Below, piece by piece: positions 2,385-51,684 of a stretch of 64,000 nt of DNA. The notes beneath the pieces were generated by a model. The model did not search any database, was not told where the DNA came from, and saw only the letters and a list, made by a program, of their open reading frames with translations. Made by a program: the position numbers and the translations under genes. Numbering within the stretch: the first letter of the stretch is position 1; each line of letters starts with the position of its first letter. Source of the DNA: Dioscorea cayenensis subsp. rotundata (lineage: Eukaryota; Streptophyta; Magnoliopsida; Dioscoreales; Dioscoreaceae); the NCBI RefSeq assembly GCF_009730915.1, contig NC_052491.1, positions 1,784,908-1,848,907 of the forward strand, written 5' to 3'.

Positions 2385-5063
2385 GGGAAAATTACTGTTT
2401 ATCCCTCAAGAATTTCAAAACTTCCCAAATAGCCCATGTGAGTTTTGAATACCTCAGACATCCCTTCCTTTATTGTTTCACATCTTTTTTACCCCCTGCA
2501 GGTCACTAGGACTGGTTCCATGTTATGAAATTTCATCCTTGCCCTTAAAAATGGTGGGAAAACAACCGCCCAATCACATCATGTTAAACCTTTTTGCATA
2601 CATTTTTAGATTCTTTTTGGTTTTTTGTTTAAATAGAAATGTTTCCGTTTAAATTTATCAAGTTTCTGTTTAAAATGTTATGTATTTGGTTTAAATTTAT
2701 CCAGTTTCTGTTTAAACAGAAATGATTTCAGTAAGCATTCGGATTCTACGAGCGTATCCGTTCCACCTCAGGGCGATCTTGACTATTTAGTAGGTCTTTC
2801 TTACTCGTTAGATCAATTTAAAGTTTGTCATTGCATGTCGGGCAACGTTTTGTAGGCACTAACCATTTAAAAAACTCACTTCACTACCACGAGTGCAGAC
2901 AAAATCGTAGATCTTGCAAAGAAACTGTCGCCAACTAAGCATAGAGGACAACTTATATTCGTTACATATGTTTGCACAAACCATCGCATATTATTGTACA
3001 TTTTGCTCGTTATTTATTAAAATTGTTTCCATAAATAAACGCAAATTTAAAATGAAACGATGATATTTAAACAGAAACATAGTTGTACAAGTTAATTATT
3101 GATTAATTATCCTAGTTTTCACTTAAAACTTATGTTTTTTCTCAGCTATCCTTGTCTTATCCCCGTTCCCGTTTAAAATTATACAGTTTTTTGTTTAAAC
3201 AGAAATGTTTCTGTTTAAAATTATCAAGTTTCTATTTAAAATATTATATCTCTGTTTAAATAATTATCCAGTTTCTATTTAAACAGAAATGATTTTAGTA
3301 GGCATTCAGATTCTACGAGTGTATCCGTTCTACCTCAGGGTCATTCTGACGGTTTAGTAGGCCTTCTTTCCTCGTTAGATCAATTTAAAGTTTTGTCATT
3401 ACATGTTGGACAACGTTTTGTAGGCGCTAACCATTTAAAAAACTCACTTCACTACCACGAGTGCGGACACAATCGTAGATCTTGCAAAGAAACTGTCGCC
3501 AACTAAGCATAGAGGACAACTTATATTCGTTACATATGTTTGCCACAAACTATCGCATATTATTGTACATTTTGCTCGTTATTTATGAAAATCGTTTCCA
3601 TAAATAAACGCAAATTTAAAATGAAACGATGATATTTAAACAGAAACATAGTTGTACAAGTTAATTATTGATTAATTATCCTAGTTTCCGCTTAAAACTT
3701 ATGTTTTTTCTCAGCTATACTTGTCATATCCCTGTTCTCATTTAAAATTATACAGTTTTTTGTTTAAACAAAAATGTTTCTGTTTAAATTTATCAAGTTT
3801 CTATTTAAAATGTTATGTCTCTGTTTAAATTTATCCAGTTTCTATTTAAACAGAAATTATTTTAGTAGGTATTTAGATTCTACGAGGGTATTCGTTCCAT
3901 CTTAGGGCCATCCTGACGGTTTAGTAGGCCTTCCTTCCTCGTTAGATCATTTTGAAGTTTTGTCATTGCATGTCGGACAACGTTTTTGTAGGCTCTAACC
4001 ATTTAAAAAACTCATTTCACTACTATGAGTGCGGACACAATTGTAGATCTTGCAAAAAAACTGTCACCAACTAAGCATAAAGGATAACTTATATTCGTTA
4101 CATATGTTTGCCACAAACTATCGCATATTATTGTATATTTTGCTTGTTATTTATGAAAATCATTTTCGTAAATAAACACAAATTTAAAAAGAAACGATGA
4201 AATTTTAACAGAAACATAGGTAGTTAAACATAAACACTGAAACTTAAACAGAAAAATTGAAACTTAAACAGAATAATCGATAGTTAAAAAGAAACAACAA
4301 TATTTACATTCAAAATTAAACCTGGCCGTCCTAGACAAATGTGGATCGAGTCGCACATCACAATGAGATTGCAAAACAATCGAAAAATCTCCTTCAACAC
4401 AGCATTATCGCTTTTGATCGTGTACACAGACCAAAATGAAAAACAAACAAAACCCTAGCCGAAAAATCTCCCTACAAACTACAAGATCATCCAATAATCA
4501 CACCATAAAACCGAAAAATTTCTCTTTCTAATAGAATACTTTACAAATCAAACCAGAAATAAACCCACAGAATATCAAAACAAAAGGAAACTGCACAACA
4601 TCTTCAACGGCATCCACCTCGCCTCAATACCTTGGAGCGCAAACTAATGAAATGCCGAAGAGTTGAGCGGGAGTTCTCCTTCGAGGTAGTGGTCCAATCC
4701 TACAGAAGATGTCCAGGCAATGATAACTTAGAAAAAAGAAAAGCTGAAGAGATGAAGAGAGAAAAAGAAAACCAGTGCCAATAATGGTGTTCTCTGAGGA
4801 TTAACCAAGAAAAAAAAACTGCTACCTCTTAAAGAGGAAAAATTATTGTAGCAAAGGGCGTTATGGTCAAACCATGTCTCACTTGCCACAACTTCCTATA
4901 CAAGGGATAATTTCGTCCAAAAAATTCAAAACTAACTCCATTGCATGCTTGGGGGGTTTCAAATTCATTGTATTTAAAAGGAAGGGGTTTTTAGGGATTC
5001 CCAAATTAATGGGGTGTTTTTAGAAATACTAAAAACTTAGGGGTTTTTTTTGGCAATTTCCAC
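2385..5063. mobile_element. MULE-like non-autonomous element with 9-bp target duplication
   Basis: The 9-mer AACAAAAAA occurs at 2376-2384 and again at 5064-5072. The ends just inside it are inverted-repeat-like: GGGAAAATTACTG on the left, and GTGGAAATTGCC when the right end is reverse complemented. The next bases on both sides continue in a comparable C-rich pattern (cccct, aagtttt-like words). A 9-bp duplication and GG-AAATT ends are typical of Mutator-like elements. There is no transposase frame. The interior holds a 567-bp tandem repeat (2621-4219) and a segment at about 4330-4800 with an aaaccctagcc word and moderate GC, like a plant promoter or 5' leader. The duplication is A-rich, so a chance match is possible. 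Confidence 0.55.
2621..4219. repeat. Tandem repeat, about 567-bp unit, nearly three copies
   Basis: The landmark gattctacgag recurs at 2742, 3309 and 3876, exactly 567 bp apart. The landmark ttttttgtttaaa recurs at 2621, 3187 and 3756. The third copy diverges after about 4219. Each unit contains several copies of gtttctgtttaaa and its inverse tttaaacagaaac, so units begin and end in short inverted motifs. The inverse motif continues as a decayed array to about 4310. No coding potential is seen. Confidence 0.9.
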
Positions 5064-6379: not shown

Positions 6380-7116
6380 TAGCCCTGTCTTAGAACAAAT
6401 GGGGCCTCGGCAAAACCATAATAATTTTTTTTAATTCTTTTTATCATATAATAAATTATATAATAAAAATAAAAAATATTATCATAAATCAATAAATTAA
6501 ATAAGATAAAATGTAGAGTTTAAAAAAATTAATTAAAATTTTTTAAAATTATATTTATGTGCATAGAATCGTATGATAGTAAATAAAATTTTTTAATATA
6601 CTTAAAAAAACATGAATTGTGTGAGGCCTAGAAGTTTGTGGGGCCTATTATAAATGTTATAATTTAAAAATAATTAAAAATTTTTAAGATAATTATATGA
6701 ATGGGATTATAGAATGATAATAAATAAAAAATTTAATACAAATTTTTTAAAAAAAGCATGAATGGTGAGACCGTGAAAAATGTGGGGTCCTATCATATTA
6801 GTTTAAAAATTTTAAATTTTCAAATAATTATATGGATAGGATCATAGGATGATAGTAAATAAAAATTTAAAATATAATTTTAAAAATGAATTGTGAAATT
6901 ATGGGGCCTCAAGGCCAAATTTATTACACATTTTATAGTTGAAAAAAAAAATTAAAATCTTCAATATGATAATTATATGGATAGGATAATACTAAATAAA
7001 AATATTAAATATAATTTTTTTAAAAAATATATATATATATATAAATTATAGGCCCTCGGAAATCTTGGGGCTCTAGGCATAGGCCTTGGTCACCTATGCC
7101 TAGGGCTGGCTCTAGG
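6380..7116. mobile_element. hAT-like non-autonomous element with internal repeats
   Basis: The left end agccctgtcttag and the right end, reverse complemented (gagccagccctag), form a short imperfect inverted repeat. They resemble the CAGGGCCGGTCTTAG end of the element at 20695. The interior is extremely AT-rich. It carries about four degenerate copies of a 130-140-bp unit with the landmarks gataattatatg-gatagga, atgatagtaaataaa and gtggggcct at about 6540, 6680, 6810 and 6960. The same interior words appear at 20700-20900 and 22620-22910, so the two elements are one family. No transposase. The target duplication is too decayed to call. Confidence 0.55.
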
Positions 7117-12344: not shown

Positions 12345-12665
12345 CTTTCAAATAAGTAGAACGGTGATGCAGAGATGAAACAATCCTATAGTGTTACTCC
12401 GGGTGGTATCCCGCGATGGGTGGAAAGAAGCTAGTGGTGTGCCATGTGCAGTTGTACCTGTACGTAGGGGAAGAGCAAGGTATACAAGATGGAGTTGGAG
12501 GGGAATGATGGGACAAAGGAGAAGGCCATAGTTGTGTGCCATCTTGACACATCTAAGTGGAACTCAAAGGGCTTGGATTTCCAAGTGCTCAAGGTGAAGC
12601 CTACTAATGTGCCAATTTGCCACTACATGCCAAAGGATCATGTTCTGTGGACAGTTAGGAAGTAG
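12345..12665 (+). pseudogene. BURP-domain pseudogene, copy 1 (5' truncated)
   Basis: Only the C-terminal half of a BURP domain is present. The best frame gives a first C-H at the sequence for V-V-C-H-V-Q-L-Y. A frameshift follows, then an open run to TAG at 12663-12665 with V-V-C-H-L-D-T-S-K-W, V-P-I-C-H-Y and D-H-V-L-W. These are the third and fourth CH motifs and the final W of the BURP signature. The second CH motif is missing. BURP proteins are secreted plant proteins (RD22, USP, PG1-beta types). This copy cannot encode one. It keeps the best 3' half of the array. Confidence 0.8.
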
Positions 12666-13243
12666 AAAGTGGAAACAGAGATTATATTTACTAGTTTATT
12701 CCCATATTGTGGCATTGTAACATGGAATAATAAGATTGTCTCCGTGTGTATTTATGAGGCACTGCTCATCTTACAATATGTTATATGATATTGTAATAAA
12801 ATTTTCCTTCAACATTAGCTTGGTTGCATGTTTCTAAGTCAGTTCTCGAGAATCTGTCAAATTCACCTTGCAATAAACTATAATTTTATTTAAATTCGAC
12901 AATGCTGTATCAGAGCGATTAATTAAATACACTGTATTGTTAAATCACGGATTAGAATTAATAATGAAATATTTTGATTTTTAAATTATGCCTATACCTT
13001 AACCATTTCTCCCTTCACTAGTAATGATAAGCCATGCACCGTCCTTTTCAAACTATCATATACCTTGATTGCTATGCAACTTAATGTTCAGATTTTGGTA
13101 CATCGTACTGTCAGAAATATACTAAATTTAAACTATAGTTTTATTTTAAATAAGCTCAAAGGAATCTAATTCTCTCTTTCTTAATAATATCTTTCATATA
13201 TAATTTTTGGCCCCGTCCCTGATAATGCCCCTAACGTAACAAT

Positions 13244-13858
13244 CTTCTTTCTGGAAAAGACTTGAATCCTGGTTCCCAATTCAAGCTCCGGCTCACCAAG
13301 ACAACCTCTGGAGTGATCATTGTATCTTGTTCACAAGCAAACACCATCCCGTTCTCATCAAAGAAGTTGCTTGAGATTCTAACCCATCTTTAGGTAAAGC
13401 CAAGGTCCATTACGGCTGGTGCCATGAAGAAGACATTCGTAGAGTGTGAGGAGCCAACCATGAAAGGGGAGAATAAGCTCTGCGCTATGTCATTGTAATC
13501 CATGGTAGAGTTCAGCATGATGAGTTTAGGAACAAGAGATGTGCAGGTTATCTTTGCAACAATAAATGAGTAGAATTGTAATGCTGAGATAAAACCGTCC
13601 TATAGTGTTAATTCGGGTGGTGTCCGTACGATTGGTGGAGAGATACCGGTGGTGTACCATGTGCAGCTGTAGTCATATAAGGATAAGAGCAAGGTGCACA
13701 TGATAGCGTTGGAGGGGAATGATGGGATGAAAGTAGAGGTTATAGCTGTGTGGCATCTTGGCATACTAAGTGGAACCCAAAGCACCAAGAGCTCAAGGTG
13801 AATCTTGGGAATGTGCCAATTTGCTACTACATGACATAGGATCATGTTCTATGGACAG
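13244..13858 (+). pseudogene. BURP-domain pseudogene, copy 2
   Basis: The domain runs from a frameshifted F-F-L-E-K start through the equivalents of T-K-T-T-S-G, I-P-F-S-S-K-K-L, C-E-E-P-T-M-K-G and L-C-A-M-S-L. A stop TAA at 13496-13498 replaces the usual Glu codon before S-M-V-E-F. Further stops and frame changes follow, and the CH motifs are decayed (Y-H, W-H). Domain order matches RD22-type BURP domains. The 3'-UTR-like tail of other copies is absent, and the spacer begins directly after the D-H-V-L-W equivalent. Confidence 0.8.
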
Positions 13859-14407
13859 TGTTGTATCAGAGCAGTTAATTAAATTCAAATTATAATAAAC
13901 TATAATTCCATTTAGAGTCTACACTATATTAGAGGGGTTAATTAAATTATATTATAATAAATTATAATTTTATTTACAGTCTATAGTATTGTATTAGAGC
14001 GGTTAATTAAATACAATGTAAACGTTAAATCACATATTAGAATTAATGATGGAATATTTTGATTTTACCTTAACCATTTCTCCTTTCACTCATATATTTA
14101 AAATTTTTCATATACTGTTTATTAGAATATAAATATAATATGCATCTAGATAAATATATTTTTAATAGATTAATATAATAATATAGATTCTTCCCTAGAA
14201 ATGATAAGCCATGCATTATCCTTGTCAAAGTATCACATACCTTGATTACCTTGCAACTTGATGGTACATTGTACTATCAGAAATACGATGAAGTCAAACT
14301 ATAGTTTTATTTTAAATAAACTCAAAGGAATCTAATTCTCCCTCTCTTAATAATATCTTTCATACATAATTTCTAACTCCGCCCCTAATGATACTCCTAA
14401 CATAATG

Positions 14408-15036
14408 CTCTTTTTCTTGGAAAAGACTTGAATCTTGGTTCCAAATTCGAACTTTGGTTCACCAAGACAACCTTTGGGTCACCCTTTATATCTCGTTCAT
14501 AGGCAAACACTATCATGTTCTCATCAAAAAAGTTATCTAAGATTCTAACCCTTTTTCAGGGCAAGCCAAGTGTATTACGGTTAGTGCCATGAAGAAGACG
14601 CTCATTGGGCGTGAGGAGCCGGCCATGGAAGGGGAGAGTAAGCTCTGTGCTACGTTATTGTAATCCATAGTGGAGTTCATCGTGGTGAGTTTAGGAACAA
14701 GAGATGCGAGGTAATCTCAACAACAGTGAATGAGAAGAATGGTGATGCTGAGATGAAATTATCCTTTAGTGTTACTTTGGGCGATGCTGTGTGATGGGCT
14801 TATAGAAGCTAGTTGCGTGCCATGTGCAGCTATACTCATATAAGGATAAGAGTAAGGTGTACACAATGGCATTGGAAGGGAATGATGGGATGAAGGTAGA
14901 GGCTATAGCTGTGTGGCATCTTGGCACATCTAAGTGGAACCTGAAACACTTGGCTTTCCAATTGCTTAAGGTAAAACCTAGGAATGTGCTAATTTTCCAC
15001 TACATGACAGAGGATCATGTTATGTGTATTGTTAGA
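14408..15036 (+). pseudogene. BURP-domain pseudogene, copy 3
   Basis: A frameshifted N-terminal part is followed by C-E-E-P-A-M-E-G and the shared stop at 14661-14663. The C-terminal part is the longest clean stretch: from 14824 it gives M-Q-L-Y-S-Y, A-L-E-G-N-D-G, T-S-K-W-N, H-L-A-F-Q and L-K-V-K-P. The CH motifs have become W-H and F-H, and the final W is lost. No intact protein is possible. Confidence 0.8.
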
Positions 15037-15510
15037 ATAGTGCTATTTAGAGTTGACAGTGTTGTATTGGAGCAGTTAATTAAATACATAAATACACAGT
15101 GCAGTTCAATCACGGATTAGAATTAATTATGAAATGTTTTGATTTTTAAATTATGTCTATACCTTAACCATTGTCCCTTCACTCATATATTTGAAATTCA
15201 TATGTATTGTTTATCAGAGTATAAATATAATTTTCATCTAGATAAATATCTTTTCAACATATGAATATAATAATTTAGATCTTCCTAGAAATTATAAGCC
15301 ATGCACCATCCTTGTCAAAATATCACATACCCTGATAGCTCTGCAACTTGATGTTCAGATTCTGGTAGATCGTATTGTCAAAAATACACTTAATTTAAAC
15401 TATAGTTTTATTTTAAATAAACTTAAAGGAATCTAATTCTCTCTCTCTTAATAATATCTTTCATATATAATTTCTAGCTCATCCTTGATGATGCCCTTAA
15501 CGTAACACTA

Positions 15511-16135
15511 TTCTTCCTAGAAAAAGACTTGAATCTTGGTTATGAATTCGATCTCCCCTCCATCGAGACGACCTCTAGGTCACCCTTTATATGTCATTCA
15601 CAGGCAAAACATCCCGATCTTATCAAACAAGCTGCCTGAGTTTATAACCCATTTTCAGGTCAAGCCAAGGCCCATTACGATTGGTGCCATGAAGAAAATG
15701 GTAGTGGAGTGTGAGGAGCCAGCCATGGAAGGGAGAATAAGCTCTTTGCTACGTCATTGTCATCGATGGTGGAGTTCAACATGATGAGTTTTGAAACAAG
15801 AGACGTGCAGACAATCTTAAAAATAGTGAATGAGCAGAACAATGATGTTGAGATGAAACTGTCCTATAATGTTACTTTAAACAGTGTTTATGCGATGGAC
15901 AGAGAGAAGCTGGTGGTGTGCCATGCGCAACTGTACACAGGGGAAAAACTAAGGCCTACACAAATGGCGTTGGAGAGGAATGATAGGACGAAGGGGGAAA
16001 CAATAACTATGTGGACTCTTGACACATCTAAGTGGAACCCGAAGAATGTGGCTTTTGAAGGTGCTTAGGATGAAGCCAAGAAGCATGCCACTTCATAATA
16101 AAAGATCATATTCTTTGGGTTGTTAGGAAGTATTA
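15511..16135 (+). pseudogene. BURP-domain pseudogene, copy 4
   Basis: The start reads F-F-L-E-K-D-L in frame. The middle (15757-16068) is open and gives S-M-V-E-F, a D-V-Q segment, V-V-C-H-A-Q-L-Y, L-D-T-S-K-W-N-P-K and V-A-F before a frameshift. At the position of the shared stop this copy has TCA (about 15757) instead of TAA, so it is the only complete copy without that nonsense codon. Other indels still break it, and the second CH is absent. Confidence 0.8.
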
Positions 16136-16827
16136 GGTCAAATTAGTTCTCTGCGTGGGATTGTGTTTACTAGTTTATTCCCATATTGTGGCATTGTGGC
16201 ATTGAATAATAAAATTGTCTCGTGTGTGCTTATGAGGAATTGCTCATCTTGCCTTATATTTTATGATATGGTAATAAAACTTTCCTTCAACATTTGCTTG
16301 GTTGCATGTTCCTAAGTCCGTAAGTTCCCGGGAATCCGTCAAATTCACATTGCAATAAACTAGATTTCTATTTAGAGTCGGCATTGTTGTATCACAATGG
16401 TTAATTAAATACACTCTACCATTGTATTATGGATTAGAAGTAAAGATGGAATGTATTGATTTTTAAATTTTTCCTATACCTTAACCATTTCTCCCTTCAC
16501 TCGTATATTTGAAGTTTCCATATAATGTTAATTAGAGTATAAATATAATATGCATTTAGATAAATATCTTTTCAACGTATGAATATAATAGTTTAGATCT
16601 CCCTAGAAATGATAACCCATGCACCATCCTTGTCAATGTATCACATACCCTAATTGCCCTACAACTTGATGCTCAGATTTTGGTTCATCGCACTGTCAGA
16701 AATACACTGAATTTAAATTATAGTTTAATTTTAAATAAATTTAAAGGAATATAATTCTCCCTCTCTTAATAATATCTTTCATTAATAATTTCTGGTTCCG
16801 CCCTTCATGATGCCCCTAACGTAACAC

Positions 16828-17467
16828 TCTTCTTCCTGAAAAAGACTTGAATCCTGGTTTTAAATTCGAGCTTTGGTTCACCAATATGACCTTTGGGTCA
16901 GTCTTTATATCTCATTCACAAGCAAACACCATACCATTCTGATCAAACAAGATGCCTAAGATTCTAACCCATCTTCAGGTAAAGCTAAGGTCAATTACGG
17001 CTGGTGCTATAAAAAAGACGCTCGTGGAGTGTGAGGAGCCAGTCATGGAAGAGGAGAGTAAGCTCTATGCTACGTCATTGTAATCCATGGTGGAGTTCAG
17101 CATGATGAGTTTGGGAACAAGAGACATGCAGGTAATCTTAACAACTGTGAATGAGTAGAATGATGATGCTGAGATGAAACCATTATATAGAGTTACTTTG
17201 GGTGGTGTCCATGTGATGAGCGGAGAGAAGCTAGTAGCATGACATGTGCAGCTATACTTGTACGCAAGGGAAAGAGCTAGGTGTATACGATGACATTGGA
17301 GAGGAATGATGAGATGAAGGTGGAGGCTATAGCTATGTGCCATCTTGACACATCTAAGTAAAACTCGAAGCACGAGGCTTTTGAAGGTGCTCATGATGAA
17401 GCCTAGGAGCGTGCCAGTTTCCCACTTCATGATAGAGGATCATGTTTTGAGGAATTTTAGGAAGTAG
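16828..17467 (+). pseudogene. BURP-domain pseudogene, copy 5
   Basis: The same order of BURP blocks is present, with C-E-E-P-V-M-E, the shared stop at 17081-17083, S-M-V-E-F, a second stop in the N-E-x-N block, and G-E-K-L-V-A before a stop replacing the first CH cysteine. It ends with an R-K-stop equivalent at 17465-17467. A 3'-UTR-like tail with a GT microsatellite (about 17551-17595) and an aataaaa signal follows. Confidence 0.8.
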
Positions 17468-17549
17468 TTGGTGGAAGTAGTTCTCTACATGAGATTATGT
17501 TTTCTAGTTTATTCCCATATTGTGGTATTGTGACATGGAAAAATAAGAT

Positions 17550-17550
<1 letters not shown>

Positions 17551-17595
<45 letters not shown>
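17551..17595. repeat. GT microsatellite
   Basis: A (GT)n run in the 3' tail of BURP copy 5. Other copies have a short gtgtgtgt at the same place, so the microsatellite expanded after duplication. Confidence 0.95.
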
Positions 17596-17597
<2 letters not shown>

Positions 17598-18192
17598 AGC
17601 CATTGCTCATCTTGACATATGTTTTATGATATGGTAATAAAACTTTACTTCAACATTATCTTGGTTGTATATTCCTAAGTCAGTCAGTTCTAGGGAATCT
17701 GTCAAATTCACATTGCAATAAACTATAATTCTCTTTCGAGTCAACAATACTGTATCAAAGTGGTTAATTAAATACATTGTATAGTTGAATCACATATTAG
17801 AATTAATGATGGAATGTTTTGATTTTTAAATTATTTCTATATCTTAACCATTTCTCTCTTCACTCGTATATTTCAAATTTTCATATACTGTTTATTAGAG
17901 TATAAATATAATACGCATTTAGATGAATATCTTTTCAGCACATAAATGTAATAATTTAGATCTCCCTATAAATTATAATCTACGCATCGTCCTTGTCAAA
18001 GTATCACATACCATGATTGCCCTGTAAGTTGATGTTCAAATTTTGGTACATCGTACCATTAGAAATACACTTAATTTAAACCATAGTTATATTCTAAATA
18101 AACTCAAAGAAATCTAATTCTCCCTCTCTTAATAATATCTTTGGTATATAATTTCTGATTCCGTCTATGATGATGCCCCTTAATGTAACAAT

Positions 18193-18797
18193 CTTCTTCC
18201 TGGAAAAAGACTTTAATCTTGGTACCAAATTTGAGCTCCGGTTCACCAAGATGACCTTTGGCTCACCCTTTATATATCGTTCACAAGCTGCCTGAGATTC
18301 TAACCCATTTTCAAGTCAAGCCAAGGTTTGTTAATGATGGTACCATGAGGAAGACGCTCGTGGAGTATGAGGAGCAGCCATAGAAGGGGAAAGTAAGCTC
18401 TGTGCTACGTTATTGTAATCCATGGTGGAGTTCAGCATAATGAGTTTGTGAACAAGAGAAGTGCATGCAATCTTAATAAAAGTGAATGAGCGAACGGTGA
18501 TGCTGAGATGAAACCATCTTATAGTGTTACTTCGGGTGGTGTCTATGCAATAGGCGGAGAGAAGCTGGTTGCGTGCCAAGCGCAACTGTACTCATACGCA
18601 GGGGAAGAGCAAGGAGTACACGATAGTGTTGGACGGTAATAATTGGACGTAGGTGGAAGCTATATCTGTGTTCCATCTTGACACATCTAAGTGGAACCCG
18701 AAGCAGTTGGCTTCCCAAGTGCTCAGGATGAAGCTGGGAGAGTGCAAGTTTGTCACTTCATAATAGAGGATCATGTTCTGTAGACTGTTAGGAAGTA
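18193..18797 (+). pseudogene. BURP-domain pseudogene, copy 6
   Basis: BURP blocks are recognisable but heavily shifted. About 40 bp are missing after the T-K-M-T block (the region equivalent to I-P-F-S-S). The shared stop is at 18416-18418. G-G-E-K-L-V-A-C-Q stands in place of the first CH, and T-S-K-W-N-P-K is present. A 3' tail with a polyadenylation-like aataaaa follows. Confidence 0.75.
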
Positions 18798-19491
18798 TTA
18801 GGTGGAAGAAGTTCTCTACTTGAGATTGTGTTTACTAGTTTATTCTTATATTGTGCCATTGTGGCATGGAATAATAAGATTGTCTTTGTGTGTGTTTATG
18901 AGGCACTGCTCATCTTGTCGTATATTTCATGATATGGTAATAAAACTTTCCTTCAACATTTGCTTGGTTTCATGTTCTTAAATTAGTGCGTTCCCTGGAA
19001 TCCATCAAACTCACATTGTAATGAACTATAATTCTATTTAAAGTTAATAGTGTTGTATCATAGCTATTAATTAAATGCATTGTACTGTTGAATCACATAT
19101 TAGAATTTATAATGGAATGTTTTGATTTTTAAATTATGCTATCCCTTAACCATTTCTCCTTTCACTGGTATATTTGAAATTTCCATATATTGTTTATTAG
19201 AGTATAAATATAATACATATTTAGATAAATATCTTTTCAGCATATAAATGTAATAATTTAGATCTCCCTAAAATTATAAGCCATGCATCGTCCTTGTCAA
19301 AGTATCACATACCATGATTGCCTTGTAAGTTGATGTGTCAAATTTTCGTACATCGTACTGTTAGAAATACACTTAATTTAAACCATAGTTTTACTTTAAA
19401 TAAACTCAAAGGAATCTATTTCTCCCCCCTTAATAATATCTTTCATATATAATTTCTAACTCTACCCCTGATGATGCCCCTACATAATACT

Positions 19492-20075
19492 CTTCTTCCT
19501 GGGGGAAGACATGAATCCTGGTTCTAAATTCGATCTCCAGTTCACTAAGACAACCTCTAGGTCACCCTTTATATCTTTTTCATACGCAAACACAATCCAG
19601 TTTTCATCAAACAAGCTGCCTAAGATTTCAACCAATTTTCAGGTCAAGCCAAGGTTCGTTACGGCTAGTACCATGAAGAAGATGCTCATGGAGTGTGAGG
19701 AGCCAACCATGGAAGGGGAGAGTAAGCTTTGTGCTAAGTCATTGTAATCCATTATGGAGTTCCAGCATGATGAGTTTGGGAACAAGAGACATGTAACAAT
19801 CTCAACAACAATGAATGAGCAGAAGGTGATGTTAAGATGAAACTATCCTATAATGTTACTTTGGCCGTTGACCAGTGTATTAGGCAGAGAGAAGCTAGTG
19901 GCATGCCATGCGCAGCTGTACCCGTATGCAGGGGAAGAGCAAGGCTATAACTGTGTGTCATCTTGACACATTTAAGTGGAACCCGAACCTGCAGGCACTG
20001 AAGAGGAAGCGTGGGAGCATACCAGTTTGCTACTTCATGATAGAGGATAATATTCTGTAGACCGTTAGGAAGTAG
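19492..20075 (+). pseudogene. BURP-domain pseudogene, copy 7
   Basis: The N-terminal half is open from 19511 to the shared stop at 19745-19747. It encodes F-T-K-T-T-S, I-Q-F-S-S-N-K-L-P-K, F-Q-V-K-P, M-K-K and C-E-E-P-T-M-E-G-E-S-K-L-C, a clear BURP N-terminal half. The C-terminal half has lost the segment around L-E-G-N-D-G, is frameshifted, and ends in an R-K-stop equivalent near 20075. Confidence 0.8.
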
Positions 20076-20914
20076 TCGGTGGAAGTAGTTCTCTATGTGA
20101 GATTATGTTTACTAGTTTATTCCCCTATTGTGGTATTGTGGCATGGAATGATAAGATTGTTTGTGTGTGTGTTTATGAGGCACTGCTCATCTTATCATAT
20201 GTTTTATGATATGGTGATAAAACTTTTCTTCAACATTAGCTTGGTTACATGTTCCTAAGTCGGTTCCTAGGAATCTGTTAAATTCACATTGCAATAAATT
20301 ATAATTTTATTTAGAATTGATAGTGTTATATCAGAGCGGTTAATTAAATACACTGTACTGTTGAAATGTTTTGATTTTTAAATTGTGCCTATACCTTAAC
20401 CATTTATTCCTTCACAAGTATATTTGAAATTTCTATATACTCTATTTTAGTATAAATATAATATGCATCTAGAAAAATATCTTTTCAACATATAAATATA
20501 ATAATTTAGTTATCCTTAGAAATGATAAGCCATGCATCGTCCTTGTCAAAATATCACATACCCTGATTGCCTTGCATCTTGATGTTTAGATTTTGGTTCA
20601 TTGTACTGTCAGGAATACAATTAATTCAATGCATGCAACACCAACATCATAAGTTATCAATCCAGTTGCAATCAAGCATGTGTGTTGATGTTACCAGGGC
20701 CGGTCTTAGAGAAAATGGACACTAAGGAAAATCATAATAAATATTTTTTTAATTATTTTTATCAAATAATAAATCATTTAATAAAAATAAAAAAATTATT
20801 ATTATAAATCTATAAATTAAGTACGATAAATTTTAGAGTTTTAAAAAATAATTAAAATCTTTTAAAATTATAATTACGTGGATAGGATCATATGATAGTA
20901 CATAAAAAGTTTAA

Positions 20915-21776
20915 GGGCCCGTCTGGTGAATAGTATGATATGAACGGATATGATATGACAACTGGATAAGAGTAGGAAAGAATATATGCATGATAAGCTC
21001 ATATCATATCTTACGCTTGGTGAGCACCGAATAAACAATTAGATAGTATCTTGTTATCCTATTTTAAGTTTGAAGTTGACCAGATAATGACAAAGATATG
21101 ATATGAATGGTATGTAAATTTATAAAATTGACATTTATAATATAGTATAGTTGTATATCTTTTTTTTAAAATTAAACTTTATTTATTTATTTTTTCCTTA
21201 AAAATTTACTTATCAATAGATTTATTAGTTTAAATTAAATTTTTGAAAAATAAATTACCTATAAATAATGTCCACAAAAATATTGATTACAATATCACCA
21301 ACTTTCAAAAATTATAGTTCATACCTTTTTTTTTTTAAGAAAAATCATACACAAAATCATCAATATATCAAAATAAATATCAAAATCAATTTGAGAAAAA
21401 AAATTCATCTAGAGAAGCTAAAAATAAGACATGATAAAAAAGAGATTTAGAAAAAAAAAATAACTTGGTCAAGAATGAGATCGAAGGAGAAACCTTTTAA
21501 CCACTTCAGATGCCAAAAAAATCCTACTTAAATAGTGAAATTAGTGTCCTATCTAGTTATTGGCAAACTTCTTGTCCCAAGTATTGGGGTTAATAGATCA
21601 AAATAAGAGATATAATAAAATCCTAGATGAAGGAGAGAAACCAAATAATAGGGCAAAATTGTAAATTTAATTTTTTTATCAAATCCTACCTCTTTCTATC
21701 CTGACTCCCCCATAAGGTAGTAGTAGGATATGATAGGATATGATATCCTATCATATCATGTCCACCAAACGAGCCA
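20915..21776. mobile_element. PIF/Harbinger-like MITE A, TAA duplication
   Basis: The left end GGGCCCGTCTGGTGAATA and the right end, reverse complemented (TGGCTCGTTTGGTGGACA), form a terminal inverted repeat that continues through tatgatatg words. It is flanked by TAA at 20912-20914 and 21777-21779. A 3-bp TWA duplication with GGNCNNGTTTGG ends is characteristic of PIF/Harbinger (Tourist-type) elements. It contains the landmark 'acaagaaacttcttgtcccaag'-like block shared with copies B and C. A 60-aa frame at 21268 has no family feature. Confidence 0.75.
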
Positions 21777-21890
21777 TAAATATATTTTTTTTTTTTAAAA
21801 AAAGAAAACATGAATTTTGAGGCCTTAGAAATTTGCGGGTGCTATTGTTTAAAAATAATTTAAATTTTCAAGATAATTATATATATATAG

Positions 21891-22556
21891 GGTCTGTTTG
21901 GTAGACAAGATAGGATATGGATGAATATGATATGAAGAATGGATAGGAGTAGGAAATGATATGGGCATGATAAGCTCATATCCTATCATATGGTTGATGT
22001 GCACTGTATATAGCATTTCGTTAATTTATTTTATGTTTGAAGTGGACCGGATAATGACAGGATAAATGAACGGTATGTAAATAGATAAAATTACTGTTAT
22101 ATATTTTTTTAAAAAAAATAAACTTTTTATGGATTTTTTCCCTTAATGATTTACTTATCTGTATATAAATAAGATGTCCATAAATATATAGATTGCAATA
22201 TTACCAACGTGCAAAAATTATAATTAATACCTATTTTCTTGAAGAAAATCAGATCAAAGATAAAGTAACAAACTCATTAATGAAAAATAAATAGATCACA
22301 TCAAAATCAAATTAAAAAAACAAAATCATCAGGCTAGAGAAACTAAAAAAATAAGATATTATTTTAAAAAAGAGATTTAGATGAAAGATAATCTGCTCAA
22401 ACACGAGATCGATAGAGAAATCCTTTAACTACTCTAAATGCATAAAATCATACTTAAAATACTAAATTTAGTGTCATATTTAGTTGTCGACAAGTTTCTT
22501 GTCCCAAGCATCGTGTTTAAAAAATCAAAAGAAGAAATGCAATGAAATCCTAGAGG
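21891..22556. mobile_element. PIF/Harbinger-like MITE B, right end lost
   Basis: Starts GGTCTGTTTGGTAGACAAGA and follows the order of copy A (ggataggagtagg, gataagctcatatc, agtttcttgtcccaagcatc, gaaatcctagagg). It then stops near 22556 without the right terminal repeat. It is therefore a truncated member inserted in the same hAT-like host. Confidence 0.65.
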
Positions 22557-23244: not shown

Positions 23245-24872
23245 ATGGCAGCGAGAGATGTGGGAGATCCCGAGGCTGAGCCCTTGGCGGTGATCGGAGA
23301 GTACGAGCTCTGGGAGAAGCTCGGCGGAGAAGGCCCCGGCTCTACGGTTTGGCGCGCGGTGCACCGGCCGAGCTCCTCCGTTGTGGCGCTGAAGCAAGTC
23401 CGTCTCGCTGGCCTTAGCCGTGCTCTCCTTGATTCCCTCCGGTGCGAGATCGATTTCCTCGCCGGCGTCTGCCACCCCAACATCGTCCGTCTCCTCGACT
23501 TCTTCCAGGTTCCTTATCCCCTTGCTTTGATTCTGTTTCAAAGACATCTGATTGATTATTTGGAGATGGTGCCCGAGATCTATGCTTTTGAGAATCAGAA
23601 AATTTGCATCCCTTTTTGGTTTCATTCTTTAGGTTTAGATGTGAAGAAAAGCAAGTACTTTGCCAGTCTTAGGATTGGTACTTAAGAATGCTTATTTCTA
23701 TGTGCTTCAGATGGATGGGAGCATCTACATGGTCTTGGAGTTCTGCCAGGGAGGAACATTGGCGACTTATATTCAAAGCAAAGGCAGATTGAATGAGTAT
23801 TTTGCCAAAAAATTCATGAAGCAACTAGGTAGAGTTATTGTACAATTCTTTTAGATGTTTGCTCCAATAGACATTGATGGGATGGTGATTTGTCCACAAT
23901 GCTCTTGTTAATTGACTTTATTCATTCATTAGTCACCTTGTCCAAGCTGTGTCCTGACTACTATTGCCTCTTAGGAATTCGGTGCTTTGTATATATTTTG
24001 CAGGAGCTGGTCTGAAGGTGCTTCATGCTCACCACATCGTTCACCGGGATTTGAAACCGGAGGTATATAGAGCTTCATTAGCTGCTATTTATGTTTATTT
24101 ATGTGTATGTGTATGTGTATGCTGATGTTCGAGCAGAACATTCTGCTTTCAGATTCAACAAGTGATCCAGTGCTAAAGATAGCTGACTTTGGATTGTCAA
24201 GGTAGTTGTTAACAAGAATTTAGTGCAGGAAACTGATTTGCATGAGAAGAATTTAGCTTTTTTTAAAATGTTCACATATTTTCTGCTTGCAGAGTCGTTT
24301 CTCCAGGAGAATATGCAGATTTTGTTTGTGGAACACCCTTGTATATGGCTCCTGAAGTTTTACAATTCCAGAAGTATGATAATAAGGTAAACTTCCTTTT
24401 CCCCTATTCTGGCATCGGAATTTGAAAATGAAATGGTGATGCGCTTGAATAGGCTGATATGTGGAGTGTTGGTACCATCCTCTTTGAGCTTCTTAATGGG
24501 TACCCGCCTTTTCGAGGCAGAAACAATGTTCAGGTAGCTTGTCTAAGTGCAGCTAGCAACCCCATTTTCATCACCATAGTTGTTAGCTGATGGTTTCTGA
24601 TGGTTTCTGATTCTCCTTTAGCTGCTTCAATGCATAAGGAGTAGCTCTTCTGTGCCATTCTCACAACTCATACTCCCCGGTTTGGATCCAGACTTGGTTG
24701 ATATGTGCACAAGGCTCTTATCTGCAAATCCAGGTTTACAAGATTGACTTCCAACTCTTAGCTAATAAAATGCCAATTACTCATTTTGACAACAAATTTT
24801 TGCTCTGTCTTTTGGGCAGTACACCGGTTGTCCTTGGATGAGTTTTATCACCACCAATTCTTTCAGAGATGA
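23245..24872 (+). CDS. ATG1t: ATG1t-like serine/threonine protein kinase, 8 exons
   Basis: Exons: 23245-23508, 23711-23828, 24004-24062, 24137-24201, 24293-24386, 24453-24533, 24622-24733 and 24820-24872. All junctions are GT-AG and the joined frame encodes 281 residues. It is a complete kinase domain and nothing more: Gly-rich loop G-G-E-G-P-G-S around 27-33, VALK lysine K50, helix-C Glu 69 (C-E-I-D), H-R-D-L-K-P-E-N with catalytic D143, D-F-G at 164-166, G-T-P-L-Y-M-A-P-E, and a C-terminal H-R-L-S-L-D-E-F block. ATG1 kinases start autophagy. Plants have a short form, ATG1t, without the C-terminal regulatory region. The short length and sequence fit that form and not full-length ATG1a-c. The start is the first ATG of a GC-rich exon in good context. 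The 3' end converges on the PPR gene, 234 bp away. The ortholog name is inferred, not searched. Confidence 0.9.
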
Positions 24873-25106: not shown

Positions 25107-26753
25107 TCATGAAATGATCCCCATCCAAGAGAAGTCATCATGTTTAAATCCCAAATCATTGTCTGCATTCCCAGCTTCTCCAAGCTGTGCCCCCAAGAGC
25201 GCTAACATTTTTGCTATCTCACCGTACTCAGGGTTCAAAACATCAGCGGCAGCAAACTCACAAACGACATTGTTGACCTCAATTGCGCTGCACCCGGGCG
25301 TCTTCTTCATACTTCTGCTCCTTATCAACTTCCTCATCTTCGCGACGCCATCCCACCTCCCTGCCGCTGCATAGATGTTTGACAGCAACACATAGTTCCC
25401 CGTGTCCTCTGGCTCAAGCTCAAGCAAGTGTTCCATTGCAATTACTGCAGTATCAACATCCCCATGAGTCCTACAAGCACTGAGCAAAGATCCCCAAATG
25501 GCCGCATCTGCAGGCATTGGCATGCCATTGATGACCTCCAATGCACGGGAAATGCACCCTGACTTTCCAAGAATATCAATCAAACAACCATAGTGCTCAA
25601 TTTCTGGAACAATGCCATATACTTGCAGCATTGAATCAAAATAGTTCAATCCTTCATCTGACAATCCAGCGTGAGCACAAGCTGATAGTACACCCAGAAA
25701 TGTGATGCTGTTCGGCTTCACCATCCCCTCGGTCTTCATTTCCACAAACAATTCTATCGCCTCACAAGCCTCCCCATGCATTGCAAGCCCGCTGATCATC
25801 GTGCTCCATGAAATAACATCCCTATTTCTCATACCATCAAACAACTGCCTTGCTTGGTCGATGCTACCGCATTTTGCATACATTTCAATGAGTGCATTGC
25901 AAACAAAAGTTCTCTTAAGCAAACCATGCTTGTTTGCATACTTGTGAATCCATTTGCCAAGCTCGAGAGCTCCAAGCCGTGCACAAGCCGGGAGCACAGA
26001 GACAACACTGATATCATCTGGCGCAAACCCAGCAAGCTGCATTTGCTGAAATGCTTCTGCAGCCTTTGAGTATCTGCCAATGCTCGCATACCCAGAGATC
26101 AATGCAGTCCATGACACAACTGTTCTATTTGGCATTGAATCAAACAAAGATCTTGCTATTTTCATGTCTCCAAGTCTGGCATACGCTGAGATGAGTGTGT
26201 TCCATGACACAACATCCCTCTCAAGCATTTCATCAAACACCTTGTGCGCATGCACCAAATCATCACATTTAGCATACAACTCCACCGCTGAATTCAGGAC
26301 AATAGGAACAAACACCAGCCCAGACCTCAGAACCTGAGCATGAACTTGCTTCCCAAGATCCAACTCCGCAAGCCCTGCACAAGCCTTGAGAACAAACGGG
26401 TAAGTGAATTCGTTAGCAAAAACCAAACTTTGATCTCTCTCTCTTCTCATCATCTGCCTATAAACTTGTATCGCTTGCCAATGCTTGTGGTGCTGTGCGA
26501 AGGCTCTTATCAATGCATTATATACGAAAACATTGGGATCCACTGCTTGCTCAAAGACTAACGCTGCATAATCTATGTATCCAATGGAGTTGCAAAGGTT
26601 GATCATTTGGGTTGCCAAATAGTTGCTGGACGATAAAGAACACACCACGATACGAGCATGAATCTTCTCTAATTCTCTGAAACTCGTGCAATTTCTCAAT
26701 AAAGGTGTGATCTGGTCCTCAATTTGTTTACACGCGAAGGAAAGGAACTTCAT
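25107..26753 (-). CDS. MEF21: E-class PPR protein, MEF21-like (At2g20540-like)
   Basis: Intronless, 548 residues. The N-terminus (L-E-K-I-H-A-R-I block) is followed by successive PPR motifs of P, L and S types with typical F-V-Y-N-A-L-I-R-A-F, D-V-V-S-W-N-T-L-I-S-A-Y and L-G-K-W-I-H signatures. The E/E+ region follows from about residue 430 (A-A-I-W-G-S-L-L-S-A-C-R, L-E-P-E-D-T-G-N-Y-V-L-L, K-K-T-P-G-C-S-A-I-E-V). There is no DYW domain. Block order, length and the M-G-I-I-S-like tail match Arabidopsis At2g20540 (MEF21), a mitochondrial C-to-U RNA editing factor reported to act on cox3. A mitochondrial role here is inferred. It lies between the kinase (convergent) and the DUF167 gene (divergent, 349 bp between start codons). 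Confidence 0.92.
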   Translation of the reverse strand: MKFLSFACKQIEDQITPLLRNCTSFRELEKIHARIVVCSLSSSNYLATQMINLCNSIGYIDYAALVFEQAVDPNVFVYNALIRAFAQHHKHWQAIQVYRQMMRRERDQSLVFANEFTYPFVLKACAGLAELDLGKQVHAQVLRSGLVFVPIVLNSAVELYAKCDDLVHAHKVFDEMLERDVVSWNTLISAYARLGDMKIARSLFDSMPNRTVVSWTALISGYASIGRYSKAAEAFQQMQLAGFAPDDISVVSVLPACARLGALELGKWIHKYANKHGLLKRTFVCNALIEMYAKCGSIDQARQLFDGMRNRDVISWSTMISGLAMHGEACEAIELFVEMKTEGMVKPNSITFLGVLSACAHAGLSDEGLNYFDSMLQVYGIVPEIEHYGCLIDILGKSGCISRALEVINGMPMPADAAIWGSLLSACRTHGDVDTAVIAMEHLLELEPEDTGNYVLLSNIYAAAGRWDGVAKMRKLIRSRSMKKTPGCSAIEVNNVVCEFAAADVLNPEYGEIAKMLALLGAQLGEAGNADNDLGFKHDDFSWMGIIS

Positions 26754-34112: not shown

Positions 34113-34512
34113 GTAAGTATAATAGCATAATTCAATAAAAATGTATATATATAGATTTTAATTCAATAAAGTATTTGTAAATATAATAGCAAAATTTATA
34201 AATTTTGAGAAATTATACTAATGCAAATAAAAAGCTAATAAATAAAAAGCAAAACTCCCACACTTCACTCATGCTTGTGATTTTACCTAGGTAAACTTTA
34301 TTACCTAAGTTTTTGATAAAATTGATAGACCTGGAATTTTTTAATTTTTTAATTTTTTAATTTAATTTTTTTTTTTTAAAGAAGACCTGGAAATATATAT
34401 GAAGTCATTTTCCATGTTCCATCAACTTGTAGAGAATTATAGTTTTATAAATCAAGTAAGAGATCATTTTGTACTTGCATTTCTCTCCAATTATGGGAAA
34501 TCATTTATATAT
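34113..34512. other. AT-rich spacer, no gene
   Basis: Only AT-rich simple sequence (for example tttaattttttaattttttaa near 34340). Confidence 0.4.
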
Positions 34513-34521
34513 TTTATAAAT

Positions 34522-34845
34522 GGTATAATACCCTAGTTGGTCTCTCTACTTTTCTCTCTGTTTCCTTTTGGTCCCTCTACTCAGAAATGCTCCCGACTAG
34601 TCTCTCTACTTTTGAAAATGTGCCCACTTAGTTAAAAATGCTCACTCGGGTCCTCTACTTTTAGAAATGTGCCCACCCTGAGACTAAGTGGGCGCATTTC
34701 TAAAAAGTAGAGGGACCTGATGAGCATTTTTAACTTAGTGGACACATTTTCAAAAGTAGAGAGACTAGTCGGGAGCATTTCTGAGTAGATGAACCAAAAG
34801 GGAACATGAGAGAAAAGTATCAGGGACTATTTTGGTGATTATACC
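34522..34845. mobile_element. Foldback MITE with perfect 9-bp target duplication
   Basis: TTTATAAAT flanks the element at 34513-34521 and 34846-34854. The whole 324 bp is a near-complete palindrome. The left arm has gtccctctactcagaaatgc, tcccgactagtctctctac, ttttgaaaatgtgcccactt and aaaaatgctcac. The right arm carries the reverse complements in inverse order around a centre near 34675. Ends are GGTATAATACCC and, reverse complemented, GGTATAATCACC. A 9-bp duplication points to a Mutator-type foldback element. If transcribed it would form a long hairpin. Confidence 0.9.
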
Positions 34846-34854
34846 TTTATAAAT

Positions 34855-35226
34855 ATATATATGTTTATATACCTACCACATCATTCTTATTTACTTATGT
34901 GTCATTTGATTAAAAACAAAATAAATGACTTTTATCTTTGTTTTAATGAAATGTAGACGAAATATGCGTAAAAGGTATACATATGATCATACGCATGGGA
35001 CTCGATGTCAATAGAGAAAAAAGTGGCTTGCTTTTTTATCCTCATCCTTTTATTCATTTGAATATATATATATATATAATGACAATGTGAACAAGCTAAC
35101 TAACGGCCTTTAGATCTATCTGTGCCAGGTCTTTTGTGTAGAGTGCTTATCGAATCCTAAAATGCTATGTATGATGTGGGAGTGGATGTTTGTTGAGTTT
35201 GTGATTGTGCTCCATGCTTGTACATG
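34855..35226. other. AT-rich spacer, no gene
   Basis: Nothing recognised. Confidence 0.4.
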
Positions 35227-37769: not shown

Positions 37770-38737
37770 GGCCTGTTTAGTGGGCATGATAAGAATGATA
37801 GGATATGATAGACTATTATATCCTATTGTTGTCATTTGTTTAGTGTGCCAATAGAATATGATAGTCTTATCCTATTGGCCCACTTTATTATGCCGGCCAC
37901 ATGATAATGAATCCTATGGGGGAGTCAGGATAGAAATATGTAGGATATGATAAAATAAAAAAAAAACTTTTTTGCCCTATTATTTGGTTTGTCTCCCTTA
38001 TCTAGGGTTTCATTGTATCTCTTCTTTTAATCTTTTAAACACGATGCTTGGGACAAGAAGCTTGTCCACAACTAGATAGAACACTAATTTCACTATTTTA
38101 AATAGGATTTTATGCATTTAGAGTGGTTAAAAGGTTTCTCCGTTAATCTTCGTGCTTAAGCAGATTATTTTTCATCTAAATCTTTTTTAATCATGTCTTA
38201 TTTTTAGTTTCTCTAGTATGATGATTTTTTTTCAAATTGATTTTGATGTGATATATTTATTTTTCATTAATGAGTTTGTTACTCTAACTTTATGTCATAT
38301 TGATGACTTTGTGTATAATTTTCACCAAAGAAATAAGTATTAACTATAATTTTACAAGTTGGTGATATTGCAATATATATATATTTGTGGACATTATTCA
38401 TAGGTTATTTATTTTTAAAAATTTTAAAATATACCAATAAGTAAATCATTAAGAAATTTTTTTAAAAAAGTCTATTTTAAAAAAATATATATATATATAT
38501 AACTATATTTATAAAGAGTAATTTTGTCTATTTACATTCCATTCATATCATATCCTATCATTATCCAGTCCACTTCAAACATAAAATAGGATAACAACAT
38601 GTTGTCTAATGGTTTATCCGGTGCGCATCAAACATATGATAGGATATGAGCTTATCATGCCCATATCCTTTTCTATTTCCTATCCAGTCCTCATATTATA
38701 TCCATCCATATCCTGTCCTGTCCACCAAAAGGGCCCT
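37770..38737. mobile_element. PIF/Harbinger-like MITE C, TTA duplication
   Basis: The left end GGCCTGTTTAGTGGGCATGA and the right end, reverse complemented (AGGGCCCTTTTGGTGGACAG), pair as terminal repeats. Flanks are TTA at 37767-37769 and 38738-38740. The interior (cttgggacaagaagcttgtc at about 38047, then gataagctcatatcc-type words near the right end) is the reverse complement of copies A and B at 20915 and 21891. It is one family, here in the opposite orientation. Confidence 0.75.
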
Positions 38738-38740
38738 TTA

Positions 38741-39195
38741 GTATAAATATAAACAATAGCAAAATTTTTAATTGTGAATTTAATTAGGGTTTTTAATTTC
38801 GGGGATGTTACAACATGTCTCCGACTTTGCTTAAATAAAAGGTGCTTATTGTCTATTTGTCAATATATATATGGACAAGCCACCCTAGCCCATATTTTTT
38901 TTTAATTATTAAGCTTCAACTATGCATCAGAAGGAAATCAAACCCTCCAATTAAGTGCTTCAACCACTTGACTATTGTGGCAATGGAAAAAAAGAAAAAC
39001 AATAAAAATCAATATATATTTTTATATAATTTGTAAGTTGGTAGATTATATAAATAAATAAAAATGTTTGTAGTTATATACTACAAATATTATTTTTATG
39101 AAAGTACAGTAGCAATTATCTAGTCTCAAGCCAGCAATTTTCTCATTAGATATTAACAAAACAAACTAAAAATAATGATTAATGAAATATAATAG
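38741..39195. other. AT-rich spacer, no gene
   Basis: Nothing recognised beyond short AT runs. Confidence 0.4.
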
Positions 39196-39716: not shown

Positions 39717-40148
39717 CTAGTCTTTGAACTGATATAAGGCATCCCACTCATCTCCTAATGAAGGAGGATAATTCTCACTTGCTGACAAGCCTGGCATGTT
39801 ATTGTCATTAGAATTAAGGTTTCCAAATACGTTCTCCATTTGTGTCGTGCCACCATATACTTGATCACCATGCCTCTCTTGATTCTCCCTATTGCTGGCA
39901 AGGCCACCGGGATTGGAAGACGAAGAAACGCCGGTGTGACGTTGCACAACTGACATGAAGTTACTTGGTTCAGTGTGAATGACCTTCGGTGGAACCGTGT
40001 AGATGATCACCGGTGGCTTTCGTTGAGCTGGCGGCTTCTTCATCTTGTAGGATTCACTACTAATCTTGAGACAAGATTGCCGAGGATCTCCGGACTCTCG
40101 TTTCGCCCAGGGTTCCTCGTCGGAGATCTTCTTTTTATCCATTTTCAC
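39717..40148 (-). CDS. VQ-motif protein, MKS1/VQ8/VQ20-like
   Basis: Intronless, 143 residues. The VQ motif F-M-S-V-V-Q-R-H-T-G is at residues 64-73 (F-x3-V-Q-x-H/L-T-G). It is preceded by the block K-P-P-V-I-I-Y-T-V-P-P-K-V-I-H-T (about 44-59), which marks the MKS1-like subgroup. The N-terminus is basic (M-K-M-D-K-K-K) and the rest is Ser/Asn-rich and probably disordered. VQ proteins are plant-specific nuclear cofactors that bind WRKY transcription factors through the VQ motif. MKS1-type members are MAPK substrates in defence. The second Met (residue 3) could also be the start. The motif has H in place of the common L before T-G. Confidence 0.92.
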   Translation of the reverse strand: MKMDKKKISDEEPWAKRESGDPRQSCLKISSESYKMKKPPAQRKPPVIIYTVPPKVIHTEPSNFMSVVQRHTGVSSSSNPGGLASNRENQERHGDQVYGGTTQMENVFGNLNSNDNNMPGLSASENYPPSLGDEWDALYQFKD

Positions 40149-46659: not shown

Positions 46660-47568
46660 ATGTTCTGCCCAGATGATCATCGGATGCTACCGTACACTCC
46701 AAGGCCTTTGATCATGGACAGAAGGTGGAAGCCGGACATTGAGCTAGCACCGAATTGTCCCCGGTGTGATTCCTCGAACACTAAGTTTTGCTATTACAAC
46801 AACTACAGCCTCACTCAGCCTAGATACTTCTGTAAGGGTTGCCGGAGGTACTGGACTAAAGGAGGCTCACTTAGGAATGTTCCAGTTGGTGGTGGATGCC
46901 GGAAGAATAGAAGAGGAAAGTCAGTGAGAACGGCAAGCAATCTGATGAATAATAGGGAAGCAAACCATGGTCATCGGCAACCTCAAGGCACTCTCCGGCC
47001 AGACCTTGCTCTTGAAGGCATGGTAGGGAATTCATGCAATCAAACCAGTGGATTGATTGATATGTCAGACATTAATGGTGGTCCAACCATAGACCTTTCA
47101 CTGCTCTACACCAAGTATTTAAACCAACCATGCCAGGAAAACGGCAATGGGGAATCGGTACCGGAGTTTCAGGGAGAGATTGATGAGCCTTTGAATAGCT
47201 TGATGAACACATCAAGTTTCGTCCATCCAATGACAACAGACACATTGAGCCAAAATTCATCAGAGCCAGTGTCAGACACTTTAATGAGCAATGGGAGCTG
47301 CCAGGGCCTCATGGGGGAGCTCAACTCCTCTCTGGATCAAATAGAATACATGAATTCACTGCCTTTCTCTGTTGATCATGGAGTGGCGGCTAATGAGGTT
47401 TTGTCTTCAAATTGCACTATTGCCCCTGGTTTCATGTTGCAAGAAACTAAGTATCACGGTTTAGAAACCTTCATCTCTGAAGATAATACTGCACATCAAG
47501 AAAATCTTATCAGTGGTGATTGGAGCACCTTTAGCCAGACCACTTTTGAAGCTTTCTATACTTTATAA
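46660..47568 (+). CDS. Dof zinc-finger transcription factor (DOF3.5/DOF1.2-like)
   Basis: Intronless, 302 residues. The Dof domain spans about residues 31-85. C33, C36, C58 and C61 form the C-x2-C-x21-C-x2-C zinc finger, followed by [18 protein letters not shown] and a basic tail (R-K-N-R-R-G-K) that is a likely nuclear signal. Dof proteins bind AAAG cores and regulate plant genes. The W-K-P-D-I-E lead-in and the [12 protein letters not shown] variant resemble the DOF3.5/DOF1.2 group, but subgroup assignment is tentative. The C-terminal 200 residues are Ser/Asn-rich without a recognised motif. The first ATG is used. A second Met at residue 9 and a third at 19 also precede the domain. Confidence 0.93.
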
Positions 47569-51411: not shown

Positions 51412-51542
51412 TTTGACCAGATTAACAAGTTCAGCCACTGTTTCACGTTTGTAGAAAGTCAACCAAACTAAAAAAATAGAGAAAAAGTCAACTCTCAATA
51501 GGAGAAAAAACACCTCTACCATCTCAACACCGACGCGTTGAC
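51412..51542 (+). promoter_or_regulatory. W-box cluster upstream of the PUB gene
   Basis: Four TTGAC cores lie within 131 bp: TTTGACC at 51412-51418; AAAGTCAACC at 51455-51464 and AAAGTCAACT at 51484-51493 (both inverted TTGACTTT); and TTGAC at 51538-51542. A TATA region (tatatatatata) follows at 51564-51575, 110-120 bp before the start codon. W-boxes bind WRKY factors, and PUB22/23/24 are elicitor-induced in Arabidopsis, so this spacing is plausible. Binding is inferred. Confidence 0.55.
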
Positions 51543-51684
51543 ATTACTTTATTATGTTCTTTTTATATATATATGGAATTCATCTTGTAAAACTCATTAC
51601 AACAAAACAAACTGCTTTCATCTTCATCTTTTCAAGAGCATCATCATCATCATCATCATCTTCTTCTTGTTCATTTGGTTTTCA

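Follow-up and report, generated by a model that had tools for sequence, protein, structure and literature searches.

Among described systems, the locus reported here is closest to the BURP genes and to the tandem pseudogene clusters of plants. According to the available text of one survey, all of its BURP proteins had four CH motifs. In ArbB2, as far as the accessible part of that study describes it, copper is bound by four invariant histidines, His237 pairs with His249 in copper binding, and the His249Ala variant is inactive (PMC12186524). Pseudogenes, according to the portion at hand of a survey of the BURP family, were left out (PMC6102523). For plant pseudogenes in general, the accessible sections of another survey describe density spikes that are tandemly duplicated stretches, more pseudogenes in tandem than expected, and an N/S ratio that is higher where pseudogenes are aligned (PMC7935947). 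As judged from those sections, the array analysed here reflects the same kind of tandem duplication, but differs in that the order of lesions first and copies later can be read from shared lesions, and in that its unit is a single-exon fragment. Our literature search, within the text it returned, found no account of such a BURP array. Very probably, we believe, it descends from one dead BURP fragment that was amplified in a short time, with the copies then decaying independently at the neutral rate.

Self-BLAST of the window, by which we mean the whole stretch of 64,000 nucleotides analysed from Dioscorea cayenensis subsp. rotundata, placed a head-to-tail array of BURP fragments at 12351-20629 on the + strand, with ~75-84% identity between units and only a few bases' difference from the span (12345..20627) given in the original prediction. 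Also in keeping with that prediction, which had counted seven tandem units with a decayed BURP domain, seven copies (PF03181) were found, every one of them on the + strand. Units U1-U6 measure 1.10-1.34 kb and U7 is curtailed, while pairwise identity among the seven aligned units is 0.743-0.836 (~80%). The 3'UTR-like part is absent from U2 and U3 and retained in the other units of the alignment. The array and its BURP copies (B1 to B7) are laid out as follows.

12351..20629, + strand: whole array, units head to tail (self-BLAST and unit alignment).
12351..12668, + strand: BURP copy B1, 3' half only, at the left edge of the array; lacks the second CH motif (CH2) and does not cover the TAA site.
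13215..13860, + strand: BURP copy B2, with no 3'UTR-like part behind it.
14375..15036, + strand: BURP copy B3, with no 3'UTR-like part behind it.
15478..16134, + strand: BURP copy B4, which has diverged further than any other gene copy and has the longest gene-tree branch.
16795..17467, + strand: BURP copy B5.
18165..18798, + strand: BURP copy B6.
19474..20076, + strand: BURP copy B7, with an extra 45-nt deletion beside the CH2 gap.
18799..19473, + strand: representative spacer, a 3'UTR-like part with AATAAA-type signals followed by an AT-rich flank.

Other repeats and genes are found around the array. A ~205 bp repeat (84% identical) occurs just past the right edge at 20700-20907 and again at 6384-6588, and is probably a transposable element; related direct and inverted repeats (69-76% identical) to the right of the array, at 20913-22554 and 37915-38749, are probably small transposable elements. 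A ~1 kb direct repeat, offset by 566 bases and 92% identical, occupies 2620-4219, and a 368-base long palindrome at 34499-34866, with an 85% match to its own reverse complement, is perhaps a foldback element. On the - strand, an open frame of 611 aa at 53357-55192 contains MuDR/MULE transposase and SWIM domains and is either an intact Mutator-like transposase or a derived gene. Ordinary plant genes, or parts of them, encode a PPR protein (25107-26753, - strand), a Dof factor (46660-47568, + strand), a U-box/ARM protein (51538-52878, + strand), a VQ-motif protein (39717-40148, - strand), and a piece of a protein kinase (23245-23685, + strand).

The majority consensus of the units matched the Pfam BURP profile (PF03181) with E=3.5e-67 and 226.6 bits (cut-off 27) over profile positions 1-215 of 216, as well as the solved BURP protein AhyBURP (8sy2) with E=3.1e-15. 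By profile match, then, the consensus is a BURP domain; by the four-CH pattern it is not, as the first, third, and fourth CH motifs are kept and the second is missing in 7/7 copies, just as the original prediction had claimed for the segment carrying it. Apart from the TAA, the CH2 deletion, and one tied CAG/TAG codon, the reading frame of the consensus is open. While the domain sequence and CH motifs 1, 3, and 4 are common to the consensus and to BURP genes (PF03181; AhyBURP, 8sy2; ArbB2), the array units differ from such genes in having no second CH, an internal stop, and no recognised 5' part. Judged by spacing, the histidine of the lost second CH would be the counterpart of His249 in ArbB2.

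Where CH2 is expected, the flanking pieces of the consensus end at profile position 145 and start again at 155, and AhyBURP (8sy2) has CH-x10-CH at this position. From the Pfam coordinates, the deletion may be put at about 20 nt, with seven profile residues and an odd base gone. In the individual copies, the gap is -20 in B1, B6, and B7, -19 in B5, -21 in B2 and B3, and ~-24 in B4; small indels came after the deletion, and so the frameshift is no longer found in every copy. The second shared lesion is the TAA before S-M-V-E-F, which was said to occur in five of the six copies covering the site. In the unit alignment, it is indeed present at all five of the named positions, and the sixth copy has TCA.

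13496..13498, + strand: TAA before S-M-V-E-F in B2.
14661..14663, + strand: TAA before S-M-V-E-F in B3.
15760..15762, + strand: TCA at the TAA site in B4.
17081..17083, + strand: TAA before S-M-V-E-F in B5.
18416..18418, + strand: TAA before S-M-V-E-F in B6.
19745..19747, + strand: TAA before S-M-V-E-F in B7.

As read from this distribution, the ancestor from which all the copies descend carried the CH2 deletion (7/7), and most likely carried the TAA too, barring the TCA copy as an older branch.

In the majority sequence, the BURP start is preceded by in-frame TAAs at about -36, -39, and -54. No in-frame Met stands between these and the start, and the nearest AG lies 61 bases upstream. Near the boundary, U3 has TTTCTAG, but six units divide 3:3 over the two bases that vary, and a hand calculation with the measured rates makes GG ~40 times likelier than AG at this site. 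A 5' exon encoded in the spacers was considered and rejected, as the spacer ORFs, inspected by eye, are only short Met-ORFs with none recognised as BURP. Similarly, a secreted full-length frame with an N-terminal hydrophobic region is not seen (no in-frame Met, upstream in-frame stops; ORFs judged by eye). Past the AATAAA-type signals of the majority sequence, there is no obvious poly(A) stretch and the DNA continues. The founder was probably a 5'-truncated BURP fragment, and dead on that ground as well. Because the unit seems to be without a BURP 5' part, the TAA need not have killed the founder.

The tree of the units is close to a star, with internal branches making up 3.4% of the unit-tree length and 4.1%, 8.3%, and 4.6% in its sub-regions. 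Groupings do occur: U5 and U6 in the spacer tree (91% support), U2 and U3 (87%) and U4-U7 (88%) in the tree of the 3' gene part, and B2 and B3 apart from the rest (90%) in the six-copy gene tree. How far two units have diverged is not significantly linked to where they lie in the array (r=0.28, permutation p=0.14). We take the pattern to reflect a single short expansion, with the copies isolated afterwards. A satellite-like spread, as originally predicted, finds no support. Although the head-to-tail units of constant orientation are shared with satellite DNA, the array has only seven of them rather than many homogenised copies, their identity is 0.74-0.84 (~80%), the tree is near-star with no link between divergence and position, and there is no sign of continuing homogenisation.

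Regarding the timing, about two inactivating lesions are ancestral (the CH2 deletion and, if ancestral, the TAA), as against 6-10 per full copy since then. With hand-counted input, the ratio of ancestral to later lesions is 0.26 (Poisson interval 0.03-0.92). The counts used (7, 8, 6, 10, 8, 8) leave out indels at the alignment ends, take lesions common to a subset of copies once per copy, and give B5 ten lesions rather than nine, as two of its stop changes share one codon; for this table, the ancestor was typed by hand at some ambiguous sites. Since few lesions are ancestral and many are later, the gap between the death of the unit and its amplification was no longer than roughly the time that has passed since the amplification, and probably much shorter.

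Still, a near-star tree reaches back no further than the ancestor shared by the present copies. The same tree would result from a live tandem array of BURP genes in which one dead member overwrote the others through unequal exchange or gene conversion, whereupon exchange ceased. Of the original claim that the unit was dead before it multiplied, what holds is the ancestor with the CH2 deletion and likely the TAA. Live BURP genes are also found in tandem, with 32/125 reported in the available text of one survey (PMC6102523). Moreover, divergence varies along the unit: the part with the TAA has the lowest value (obs/exp 0.53; p=0.059 by permutation) and the 3'UTR-like part the highest (obs/exp 1.64, p=0.011), and the dip was counted in favour of a takeover. 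However, the dip is found both in the five TAA copies (0.112-0.127 versus 0.201 overall) and in the TCA copy (0.135-0.144 versus 0.225), and therefore does not record a spreading of the stop; on this ground, we rejected spread of the stop by local conversion. Further against a live array coming first, none of the spacers contains a recognisable 5' half of the gene, and a search for a live donor in the window found no BURP sequence with E<1 outside the array (best E=1.3; tblastn with E up to 10, a 1000-N stretch masked). On balance, we regard an earlier live array as unlikely.

As for the TCA copy itself, TAA to TCA and TCA to TAA are each one change, and the residue of AhyBURP at this site is Ser. 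No branch of the gene trees is longer than that of B4 (0.173 with six copies). Rooting under a non-reversible model left nine root positions all acceptable (p-AU 0.16-0.64), and with no significant root, neither an older branch nor a back change can be taken as proven for this copy.

To return to the reading of one dead fragment whose copies decayed independently, the substitutions in the gene part follow what the spacer alone predicts. The observed nonsynonymous, synonymous, and stop changes number 296, 132, and 16, compared with 303.4, 137.4, and 17.2 predicted from spacer rates alone. The N/S obs/exp is 1.03 (95% CI 0.86-1.24; single copies 0.75-1.43) and the stop/S obs/exp 1.02 (0.60-1.56), which bears out the expected ratio near 1 for copies spread without selection for a product. 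No selection is visible since the amplification, with a short functional period right afterwards being compatible with the test, and the units would seem to have no product. Against uniform neutrality, in 4/7 units the divergence from a majority ancestor is greater for the gene part than for the spacer (Fisher p<0.05). We attribute this excess to the higher G+C of the gene part, the rates (gene part and spacer) being 0.098 and 0.078 for G:C>A:T transitions and 0.022 and 0.016 for A:T>G:C. The counts against spacer rates, the N/S and stop/S values, and the TAA probabilities given below rest on a rule-based plurality ancestor in which tied sites became N; ties account for 16 of the 20 sites where it departs from the hand version.

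C>T changes are strongly dependent on context, being polymorphic at 20/20 CG, 22/24 CHG, and 135/242 CHH sites (CG and CHG together versus CHH, p=5e-8; CHG alone, p=0.0004), where only columns holding just C and T (or G and A) with conserved neighbours were counted. Between pairs of array copies, which are not independent, the figures are 222/364 (61%) for CG, 269/484 (56%) for CHG, and 997/4181 (24%) for CHH, whereas the contrast is weaker among 12 other repeat pairs of the window (41/107, 38%; 27/82, 33%; and 199/855, 23%). CHG methylation is a mark of silenced plant DNA, and the CG/CHG bias suggests that the array may be a cytosine-methylated locus. A silenced locus is also what would be expected if the units functioned as RNA or chromatin with no need of a protein, for instance as a source of small RNAs silencing BURP genes, and the excess of this bias over the other repeat pairs suits such a role. 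Against it, the gene part and spacer have evolved at the same, apparently neutral rates, and the CpG observed/expected of the array (0.45) is no lower than that of the left flank (0.44; right flank 0.58), so that a strong array-specific CpG depletion was rejected. A hairpin source of small RNAs was rejected because there is no long inverted repeat, the longest of 21 pairs being 37 nt with 70% complementarity. We therefore consider an RNA or chromatin function improbable. More specifically, the array might be a silenced, methylated decoy in which a dead BURP fragment is retained, or simply tolerated, as a small-RNA template against live BURP genes; this version is a shade more doubtful still, though if true, the CG/CHG decay would be the trace of long methylation.

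Lastly, an independent origin of the TAA in several copies has next to no chance of being right: recurrent mutation does occur in the array, as seen at the CAG/TAG codon (TAG in B1, B2, and B5, ancestral state tied), where the CHG context makes C>T frequent, but the TAA requires a transversion from GAA or TCA, at least five of six independent TAAs have a probability of 1.9e-7 from GAA and 1.1e-6 from TCA (measured per-copy rates, star tree assumed), and the CH2 deletion is common to 7/7 copies. The alignment thus supports the original view of the stops as not independent (P ~1e-6 or below for a chance origin on a star tree), and with such an origin excluded, the sequence from which the copies descend was dead before they separated. 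Disabling lesions together with neutral evolution, and lesions that predate the duplication (CH2 in 7/7, TAA in 5/6), mark the units as duplicated pseudogenes.

In our preferred reading, the dead founder would have consisted of a BURP-domain exon, the 3' untranslated region, and some flanking DNA, with no recognisable 5' part, and would have carried the second-CH deletion and most likely the TAA. This fragment would then have multiplied head to tail rapidly, with unequal crossing-over as the likeliest mechanism, after which sequence exchange among the copies presumably stopped, and each copy would have decayed alone at the spacer rate, in a substitution context that suggests cytosine methylation.

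Debris of this kind is ordinary in plant genomes, but here its history can be read unusually well; the understanding of BURP function is left unchanged by it. Its worth is that of a small and clean natural experiment, in which the order of lesion first and amplification later is legible. Moreover, the copies provide several independent neutral replicates, which allow the spectrum of mutations, the decay by indels, and the C>T rates linked to methylation to be determined at one plant locus. For the BURP family, it also means that copy numbers taken from domain matches may include dead fragments.
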